DNA of 64,000 bases. It comes from Pontiella desulfatans (lineage in GTDB: Bacteria > Verrucomicrobiota > Kiritimatiellia > Kiritimatiellales > Pontiellaceae). The notes under the pieces are model-generated. The model worked only from the letters and a program-made list of their open reading frames with translations. It ran no database searches and was not told where the DNA came from. The stretch is taken from contig NZ_CAAHFG010000001.1 of assembly GCF_900890425.1 (NCBI RefSeq), positions 4,030,001-4,094,000 of the forward strand. Direction: 5' to 3'. Each line of letters starts with the position of its first letter. The first letter of the stretch is position 1. Positions 1 to 5,044 of the stretch are shown piece by piece. Made by a program: the position numbers and the translations under genes.

Positions 1-346
1 TGTTGCGAAAGATGTCGGCAAAGCCGGGAATATCGCCTTCGATCGGCGCAATCACAACCTTGAAGCCCTGCTGGGCAACGGCCCACACGGCATGCTCGCG
101 GCTGGAACCGCAACCAAAGTTGTTCCGGCCAACGAGGATCGAGGCGCCCTGCGTCTTCGGCTGGTTCAGCACAAAGCCGGCGTTGTCGGAACCGTCGTCG
201 GTGTAGCGCCAGTCGGAAAACAGCGCCGGGCCAAAGCCGGTGCGCTTGATCGATTTCAGGTGCTCCTTCGGGATCAGCGCGTCCGTATCGATGTTCGCGC
301 GGTCGACCGCACAAACGATTCCTGTGAATGTTTCAAACTTTTCCAT
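1..346 (-). CDS. leuD: 3-isopropylmalate dehydratase small subunit (partial)
   Basis: Small subunit of isopropylmalate isomerase, which with LeuC converts 2-isopropylmalate to 3-isopropylmalate in leucine synthesis. Reading the minus strand from ATG at 346 gives [20 protein letters not shown], then [11 protein letters not shown] and the family signature [14 protein letters not shown]. The frame runs open to the window edge, so the C-terminal part (roughly 80 residues, judging by the family's usual size near 195-200) lies outside. The start codon overlaps the leuC stop by one base (TAATG), so the two are almost certainly translationally coupled, as expected for subunits of one heterodimer. The assignment is firm. 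Confidence 0.95.
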
Positions 347-1752
347 TAGTCGATCTCCCTTACGTCCACAAAACGTCCGTGAATTGCCGCTGCTGCGGCC
401 ATGGCCGGGCTAACGAGATGGGTACGGCCGCCGCGGCCCTGGCGACCTTCGAAGTTGCGGTTGGAGGTCGAAGCGCAACGCTCCTTGTCCTTCAGCTTGT
501 CGGGGTTCATCGCCAGGCACATGCTGCAGCCGGCATAGCGCCACTCGGCGCCCGCTTCGTGGAACACGCGGTCGAGGCGCTCGGCTTCGGCCTGGTAGCG
601 AACCTTTTCGGAGCCCGGAACCACCAGCACGCGGACTCCGTCGGCAACCTTCTTGCCTTCCATCACCTTCGCGGCGGCGCGGAGGTCTTCGATGCGGCCG
701 TTGGTGCAGCTGCCGATGAACACGGTGTCGATCTTGATATCGGTCATCTTCATGCCCGGCTCAAGGCCCATGTAGTCCAGTGCGGCGCGCACGTCTTCCG
801 GTGCATATCCCGCCACGGCGTCAAGGGCCGGAACGGTGCTGTTCACGCCCGTCACCATGCCGGGGCTGGTGCCCCACGTAACCTGCGGCTCAAGCGTTTC
901 AACGTCGATCACGAGCACCTTGTCGTAGTTCGCGTCGTCGTCGGAGAAGAGCGTCTTCCAATAGGCGATGGATTCCTCCAGCGCTTCGCCCTTCGGGGCG
1001 AACGGGCGGTCTTCGGCGGTGATGTAGTCGATGGTGGTCTGGTCGGGGGCAATCAGCCCCGAACGCGCGCCCGCTTCGATCGCCATGTTGCAGACGGTCA
1101 GGCGGCCCTCCATCGAAAGCTCCTCGATCGCTTCGCCGCAGAATTCGAATGCGCATCCGGTTCCGCCCGCGGTTCCGATTTTGCCGCAGAGTTCAAGCAC
1201 CAGGTCCTTGGCGGTGACGCCGGTCGGAATCTTGCCCTTGAATTCAACCTTGTATTGCTTCGGCATTTTCTGGCGAAGCGTCTGGGTGGCGAGCACATGC
1301 TCCACTTCGGAGGTGCCGATGCCGAACGAGATGGCGCCGAACGCACCGTGCGTCGCCGTGTGCGAGTCGCCGCAAACCACCGTGGTGCCCGGCAGCGTGA
1401 TGCCCTGCTCCGGGCCGATGATGTGCACAACGCCCTGCTTGTCGGACTCCATGCCATAGAAGGTGATGTTGTTGTCCGAACAGTTCTGCTGAAGCGCATC
1501 AAGCTGTGCCGCGGCAATCGGATCCGTCACATCCGCACGGACACGGCTGTCGGTCGGTACGTTGTGGTCGGTGGTTGCGAAGGTCAGCTCCGGATGGCGC
1601 ACCTTGCGGCCATGTAGCTTAAGACCTTCAAACGCCTGCGGGCTCGTGACTTCGTGCACGAGGTGGCGATCGATGTAGAGAAGCACTTCGCCGCCGGGCA
1701 ATTCCTTGACGACATGCTGGTCCCATATTTTTTCAAACAGTGTTTTTCCCAT
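346..1752 (-). CDS. leuC: 3-isopropylmalate dehydratase large subunit
   Basis: Large, iron-sulfur subunit of isopropylmalate isomerase (leucine pathway, aconitase superfamily). It has 468 residues, the usual family length. Visible motifs are [17 protein letters not shown] (about 126-141), the first cluster ligand in [13 protein letters not shown] (Cys349) and the pair in [12 protein letters not shown] (Cys409 and Cys412), which together hold the [4Fe-4S] cluster. ATG at 1752 starts the canonical N-terminus [15 protein letters not shown]. The gene leads the leuC-leuD pair. The upstream side holds only the Fic remnant, so the promoter should lie within 1753-1886. Confidence 0.97.
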
Positions 1753-1886: not shown

Positions 1887-2060
1887 TCAGTTGCCGAAAA
1901 CCGGGTTCCAGCGGCTCAGAATCAATGTCTGCCACAGCCGCCCAATTCTTCCGTTTCCGTCTTCAAACGGATGAATGAATTCAAACTCGTGGTGGAACAC
2001 CGCACCGGCCACCAACGGATGCAGCTCCGTCGCTTCCAACCATTGGAAAAGCTGCTTCAA
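1887..2060 (-). pseudogene. Fic-family protein remnant (C-terminal fragment)
   Basis: The minus strand in this interval encodes about 57 residues that include FIHPFEDGNGRIGRLWQTL, the HPFxxGNGRxxR signature of Fic-domain enzymes (AMPylases and relatives), preceded by HPLVAGAVFHHEFE, which is typical of the helix before the motif. The frame is closed by TAA at 2061-2063 just upstream of the similarity and ends early at NPVFGN. No Fic N-terminus is found in the short gap to isocitrate dehydrogenase. The break lies exactly at the terminal repeat of the neighbouring four-helix-bundle element, so insertion with flanking deletion is the likely cause. Confidence 0.8.
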
Positions 2061-2062
2061 TT

Positions 2063-2757
2063 ACGGACAAAAGGGACATAACCCGTTTATTCGCCTTTCC
2101 CGTTCTGTCCATTTTGTCTATGGTTTGTTCTAGCCTTGTAAAGCCGATCAGAAAAGCCTCCGTCCGACTCAAAATCCTCAGCCTGCCGAGCCAAAAGCTT
2201 TTCAACCAGATAATGCGCCTGGGCTGAAAGCACTGCACCGAGGTTCGCCGCCCGCTCCTCGCGGCTCTGTTGCCGATCCGACCGGTTTATCCAGCCAGCG
2301 GCCTCCGCCAAACTCTCGGGACGCAGGTTCCGCGCTTCGCCGAACAGGGTCGCATTCTCCGTTTCCCATAATGGAAGATGTTTGCGCTCCAGATATTTCT
2401 TATAGTCCTTATGCAACTCCCCCAAACTACCACGCGCAACATTGGTCAGATTCAATTCCAGCTTCTTGGTTGTGGCACTCAGCTCGCTGCCTTCACGGAT
2501 ATTCTGGAAACCGCTTCGCGCCGCCTGCACCATCTGGTCATGGTGCCGATCCTTCGGCGGGATATACAACTCGCAAAACCGGCAGGTGAAATCATAGCAC
2601 AGCTCCGCAAGTTGATACGCCCTCAGCTTTCGGAAACCGCTATGCTTCCCGAAAATCCGTTCCGACGAATCGGAACTCAATACATGCCGCTTTTCTTCCA
2701 TGCCCCAAACCAGTCTTGAACCACCTGAAATCAGACGGTTTTGTCACTTCTGTCCGT
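2063..2757. mobile_element. Putative 695-bp element with 16-bp terminal inverted repeats carrying a four-helix-bundle gene
   Basis: The left end (2063-2078, ACGGACAAAAGGGACA) and the right end (2742-2757, TGTCACTTCTGTCCGT) are inverted copies matching at 14 of 16 positions. Between them lies one gene (2087-2701), whose last codons repeat the same words (GACAAAATGGACAGAACGG, near 2098-2118, minus strand). The left end sits one base from the broken Fic frame. No transposase is present, and no target duplication could be recognised. The element status is inferred from the symmetric ends and the disrupted neighbour. Confidence 0.5.
2087..2701 (-). CDS. Four-helix-bundle protein (23S rRNA intervening-sequence protein family)
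   Basis: A 204-residue protein whose core (about 21-115) has the four-helix-bundle signature of the 23S rRNA IVS-encoded / Avd-like family: FRKLRAYQLAELCYDFTC, then DRHHDQMVQAARSGFQNIREGS, then LELNLTNVARGSLGELHKDY. The core fold is basic and nucleic-acid-associated in characterised relatives (Avd of diversity-generating retroelements). The C-terminal extension is charged and ends in NHRQNGQNGKGE, which is simply the translation of GGACAGAA/GACAAAA words. No rRNA gene or reverse transcriptase is nearby, so this is a solitary copy. ATG at 2701 is the only sensible start; its ribosome site is weak. The molecular role of solitary members is unknown. Confidence 0.75.
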   Translation of the reverse strand: MEEKRHVLSSDSSERIFGKHSGFRKLRAYQLAELCYDFTCRFCELYIPPKDRHHDQMVQAARSGFQNIREGSELSATTKKLELNLTNVARGSLGELHKDYKKYLERKHLPLWETENATLFGEARNLRPESLAEAAGWINRSDRQQSREERAANLGAVLSAQAHYLVEKLLARQAEDFESDGGFSDRLYKARTNHRQNGQNGKGE

Positions 2758-2803
2758 TCAACACGGGAAGTGAACCAGATCAAGAACTGGAAACAAAGCA
2801 AAT

Positions 2804-5044
<2,241 letters not shown>

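Follow-up and report, generated by a model that had tools for sequence, protein, structure and literature searches.

A four-helix-bundle gene between inverted ends in the icd–leuC spacer

The window, that is, the whole 64,000-nucleotide stretch of Pontiella desulfatans DNA analysed here, contains near its start a gene for a 204-aa four-helix-bundle protein with a suffix domain (2087..2701, minus strand; TIGR04258 and TIGR02436). It is located between icd (isocitrate dehydrogenase; 2804..5041) and leuC (346..1752), both also on the minus strand, and is accompanied by a 57-codon fragment of a Fic gene (1890..2059, minus strand), recognized by DNA identity to an intact Fic gene. The left outer end, on the 3' side of the gene (2063..2083, plus strand), consists of about two 9-bp units, GGACAAAAG and GGACATAAC. 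The right outer end, on the 5' side (2737..2757), is inverted with respect to the left one, its minus strand reading ACGGACAGAAGTGACAAAACC. The left end, ACGGACAAAAGGGACATAACC, and the reverse complement of 2737-2757 are identical at 18 of 21 positions, a match of which the 14 out of 16 given in the preliminary description is a subset; the inverted ends are real. Equal or better inverted matches were found in 7 of 1,500 random pairs with the same geometry within the window. Since this match alone has a p of ~0.005, it is the comparative evidence that carries the case.

A further copy of the end words, in the opposite orientation to the left end, is present within the 3' end of the gene (2102..2123, minus strand), which bears out the repetition given in the preliminary description, and the two fold into a hairpin as DNA (z -2.6). 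Across nine genomes, the word GACARAANNGACARAAC has four occurrences, each of them at a gene of the window gene's clade. As the window ends have only about two units each, with no array above the periodicity threshold used below, the 9-bp period of this element is taken from its clade: lag 9 is the best lag in a flank at five loci of that clade (L007, L008, L011, L012 and L013). The right boundary is overlapped by a 12-bp perfect inverted copy (2755..2766) of the 3' end of icd (2821-2832), which may be either a terminator or the footprint of a template switch.

In four related genomes (G001, G008, G018 and G042) icd is directly followed by leuC, the empty site for this element. Given this adjacency, the window holds an insert of ~0.95 kb, the icd–leuC spacing in its genome, comprising the element and the 170-bp Fic fragment. 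The fragment (1890-2059) has 81% DNA identity to an intact Fic gene near 1.577 Mb of contig C1 in the same genome. The loss of the Fic frame had been placed exactly at the left end of the element; the homology does stop sharply at 2059, 4 bp short of that end, but the Fic piece is also broken on its other side, at 1890. A search for empty sites, especially one with an intact Fic gene, had been suggested; the empty site found is the icd–leuC spacer without Fic. No Fic gene was present at this site in any relative inspected, so the proposed interruption of a Fic gene at this locus is unsupported. The Fic fragment is part of the insert and came with or beside the element; consequently, the icd–leuC comparison does not fix the exact ends of the insertion event. 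The four-helix-bundle gene, described initially as the sole cargo, is the only intact gene carried by the insert, whose inverted ends are conserved.

The encoded protein is a distant relative of the 23S rRNA IVP family

The 204-aa protein scored 46.2 bits against TIGR04258 (four helix bundle suffix; curated cut-off 40) and 26.6 bits against TIGR02436 (four helix bundle; curated cut-off 24). Its score against Pfam PF05635 (23S_rRNA_IVP), 26.0 bits, is under the gathering threshold of 33.8 and, as judged by sequence, it is a distant branch of that family. The gene is under purifying selection, with dN/dS of 0.04-0.05 against two homologues, at saturated dS. Searches of Rfam, PADLOC and PHROGs returned no matches, and a sequence search against solved structures returned only noise.

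An AlphaFold2 model built from seven sequences had a mean pLDDT of 62. When this model was compared using VIA-align, S23p structures occupied the top rows, with 2gsc at Z 9.9 (110 residues, 2.6 Å) and 2rld at Z 9.0, values in a range that helical bundles can reach through a common arrangement. Foldseek with the same model gave nothing significant (E 2.3, with the S23p structure 2rld at rank 36). The range aligned by VIA-align reaches the suffix domain and takes in its first helix, which would then be the fourth helix of the bundle. The protein in 2gsc, Xcc0516, forms a pentameric ring (PMC4990558). A subgroup of the suffix proteins has a topoisomerase DNA-binding C4 zinc ribbon at the C terminus, as in L019 (1453-2217; Pfam 41.9 bits, cut-off 32). 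A similar fusion was observed in L029, L030 and L034, the Pfam score being the one obtained for L019.

Close relatives occupy different sites and keep the inverted ends

Proteins 81-87% identical to that of the window occur in other families of the same order and in other named bins, at different sites: reading the flanks by eye, L008 has hemD and hemB as neighbours and L043 has restriction genes. Copies with 66-71% identity are found beside comM (L010 and L035), a restriction gene (L011) and radC (L013), also by eye. Words resembling GGACAGAA are present outside the gene, in inverted orientation, in most of L007-L013 and L035. An empty site is available for L008, since hemD directly precedes hemB in G038 (L285). 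The preliminary description was to be abandoned if the flanks of homologous genes lacked conserved inverted ends; such ends are present. Together with the empty sites, they make this family a good candidate for the mobility or nucleic-acid-binding factor that had been proposed. Viral contigs yielded no relatives.

Protein class determines array period

We analysed 188 distinct loci from the class of the source organism, 103 encoding suffix proteins and 85 encoding plain (S23p/IVP) proteins, plus one frameshifted gene. A gapped inverted alignment of all flanks together was too weak for degenerate arrays, whereas a periodicity analysis succeeded; arrays were called where stretches had at least 17 of 24 matches at a given lag. 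Plain genes have 7-bp arrays, with a minority of 8 bp: lag 7 was detected in 39 of 85 upstream and 48 of 85 downstream flanks. For suffix genes, lag 9 was detected in 25 of 102 upstream and 27 of 101 downstream flanks, and about half of the suffix loci, including that of the window, had no array above the threshold. Dinucleotide shuffles yielded 0-1 arrays, and in sequence 500-720 nt away no lag gave more than 2. Both ends of a locus usually had the same period: 41 plain loci had 7,7, another 8 loci had 8,8 and 12 suffix loci had 9,9, and discordant pairs were few. The two apparent exceptions, L026 and L228, which are plain but have period 9, seem to be damaged copies from the suffix class.

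In the 76 loci with both arrays, the two ends of a locus shared on average 7.0 six-mers in inverted and 1.9 in direct orientation, compared to 0.40 with other loci. Between unrelated sites, 9.0 six-mers were shared when the proteins were at least 75% identical and 0.68 when identity was under 30%. On this word sharing, the words are inverted, specific to the locus and track the protein rather than the site. An apparent stray match to an array word was observed at L292, seemingly inside a coding gene.

When mapped on a four-helix-bundle domain tree, which has few columns and is weakly resolved, the period labels required 8 changes, compared to ~46 for shuffled labels. Period 8 arose several times among plain proteins, and no residue setting it was found in these proteins. 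The median array length was 4.9, 4.6 and 3.7 units for periods 7, 8 and 9, respectively, with a total near 35 nt throughout; given this constant total, the period 9 arrays do not clearly favour a ring in which each subunit takes one unit. The ordinary 16-bp terminal inverted repeats initially assigned to the window element are better described as tandem word arrays, whose period in the suffix protein class is 9.

Empty sites on plasmids and in 23S rRNA

A plain-protein query retrieved 25 plasmid records, chiefly cyanobacterial. All nine inspected, from Cyanobacteriota, Gemmatimonadota and Alphaproteobacteria and including two 97% identical copies in one strain, have inverted arrays, eight with period 7 and one with period 8. 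Three could be paired with an empty site. The element of Calothrix brevissima (L269), compared with the empty Tolypothrix site (L279; flanks 95 and 87% identical), replaces ~11 bp at the stop codon of an integrase gene and provides a new stop. That of Nostoc (L274) is inserted between nrdB and nrdA, as shown by the empty Calothrix site (L281). In Azospirillum lipoferum 4B, both states occur in the same strain (L277 and L278; flanks 99% identical), and the element takes the place of a hairpin tip in 23S rRNA.

None of these three sites shows a target-site duplication; 10-20 bp are replaced instead, and classical terminal repeats with target-site duplication were rejected on this basis. Direct repeats of 30-107 bp lie outside the element at L043, L038 and L010. 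We did not count them as target duplications: at L043 they are segments of a restriction gene that recur close by, and they are missing from L035, which shares its comM site with L010. In L273, a Pseudanabaena plasmid element between cas6 and cas4, the arrays (AAAAGCT/AAAAGCC) have some ten or more copies on each side.

Relationship to known systems

In the intervening sequence (IVS) of the Coxiella 23S rRNA gene, GACAGAT heptamers precede an S23p ORF, and the insert is excised by RNase III (PMC4990558). The 23S IVSs with an S23p/IVP ORF, known from Coxiella and Leptospira, and the window element likewise consist of a four-helix-bundle ORF in a short insert with inverted ends. The window element differs from them in being located between the protein genes icd and leuC rather than in an rRNA gene, in the suffix domain of its protein and in the period of 9 of its clade's words. 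The Coxiella account reports heptamers on one side only and does not link period to protein type (PMC4990558). Since the Azospirillum plasmid element (L277), with its empty site, is itself a 23S rRNA IVS, the classical rRNA intervening sequences and the four-helix-bundle elements look like one kind.

Intergenic heptamers have been reported in Xanthomonas (GGGAATC, often in inverted pairs), in Nostoc and other cyanobacteria (STRR-type) and in Beggiatoaceae (TAACTGA) (PMC4692102, PMC4679880). They resemble the arrays found here in being short tandem 7-bp words, but were described without an associated protein; in our analysis, the heptamers observed on cyanobacterial plasmids form the ends of four-helix-bundle elements. 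Genes of the 23S_rRNA_IVP family next to cas4 and cas6 in cas loci have been read as having a CRISPR-Cas-associated function (PMC3936711). L273, a member of the same family, is flanked by cas6 and cas4 and has an array at either end; we read it as an element insertion.

A small protein with cognate hairpin repeats is also the arrangement of REP elements and their RAYT transposases; the likeness extends to the small protein and its cognate repeats, although no HUH transposase is present in the unit seen here. Avd of diversity-generating retroelements resembles the S23p fold (PMC10053308), but no reverse transcriptase is apparent in the unit seen here.

Our search of the open-access literature found no paper joining IVS heptamers, intergenic heptamers and IVP genes of cas loci, or reporting periods 8 and 9; nor did the literature on the suffix domain, Avd and heptamers yield a prior account of the link between array and protein. 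For thirty years, S23p/IVP proteins have been turning up in rRNA inserts, in CRISPR loci and restriction operons, and alone, and we know of no function for them. Matched word arrays with a class-dependent period supply a candidate binding substrate as well as element boundaries, are a possible origin of the widespread bacterial heptamer repeats and, with a word length fixed by class at 7, 8 or 9 bases, make the function of this long-unexplained family testable.

A probable IVS-like element whose protein may recognize its own repeats

We consider it likely that this is a selfish mobile element of the IVS type. It would consist of one four-helix-bundle gene with an array of a short word on each side, the two arrays being inverted and their period set by protein class, and its protein would recognize its own repeats. 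Insertion as a unit is shown by the occupied and empty sites. Binding of the arrays by the protein, their wrapping around a ring, stem processing outside rRNA and the copying step are what we infer. A ring-forming protein would bind its own element through the repeated word, which it probably recognizes in a nucleic acid that is single-stranded or folded as a hairpin. Pairing between the inverted arrays in the transcript would loop out the insert as a stem and so make insertion in rRNA hairpins or just after stop codons tolerable; such pairing would hide the insert in RNA, analogous to the RNase III excision of the Coxiella IVS (PMC4990558). Copying to new sites may be carried out by an outside enzyme supplied in trans. 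The fixed periods would be accounted for by a ring whose subunits each take one unit, but a constant total of ~35 nt fits the array lengths equally well. A counterpoint to the mobile-element reading is that no cutting or copying enzyme is encoded.

We are evenly divided on a broader proposition: that this kind of element spans phyla, encoding only a ring-forming four-helix-bundle protein whose ring reads a period code of 7, 8 or 9 nt in the inverted end arrays, with protein geometry setting the repeat length, and that it includes the rRNA IVSs and the cyanobacterial heptamer repeats.

The arrays could instead be operators or translational control sites through which the protein regulates itself, the unit being moved by general recombination and not itself mobile. 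The adjacency of the arrays to the gene and the tracking of the protein by the words are compatible with this, as is a co-directional downstream gene in 76 of 107 cases (heuristic gene calls). An inverted, word-matched array past the 3' end would, however, be unexpected for an operator, and clean occupied/empty pairs, one of them in 23S rRNA with 99% identical flanks, show insertion of the unit. Self-regulation is, on balance, unlikely to explain the arrays. Somewhat less probable still is a non-autonomous transposon moved in trans by an ordinary transposase, with the four-helix-bundle gene as a passenger. Inverted ends, small size, empty sites and the lack of an encoded nuclease would suit such a transposon, but its end words should follow a common transposase, whereas those observed vary by locus and follow the supposed passenger, whose class sets the period, and the three empty sites on plasmids show no target-site duplication. 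A last alternative, that the words match by chance or form a plain terminator hairpin, is suggested by the p of ~0.005 for the window match alone and by the hairpin behind the window gene. It is very improbable, and for the family the comparative tests refute it, given the conservation in relatives elsewhere, the exclusive words and class-locked periods far above shuffles.

Recurrent neighbours and other repeats

Certain locations are used repeatedly by four-helix-bundle elements: operons for restriction or CRISPR systems, and the positions just past the stop codons of particular conserved genes. Reading the neighbours by eye, we observed elements at hsdR–hsdM (L021, L028 and L069) and at cas genes (L067 and L273), as well as directly after the stop codons of purL (L014, L017, L018 and L024) and leuS (L019, L025 and L020). 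The leuS site is used by different subclasses (L020 compared to L019). The palindrome TTCCAANNNTTGGAA, common between genes of this order (L007, L011, L012, L014, L016 and L033), belongs to another repeat family. Finally, two similar four-helix-bundle genes lie 7 kb apart in one genome (G000:C1:918852 and 926140; L053 and L052, respectively). Each is split at the same place into two open frames, of 73 and 103 aa, and their words look like period 8.
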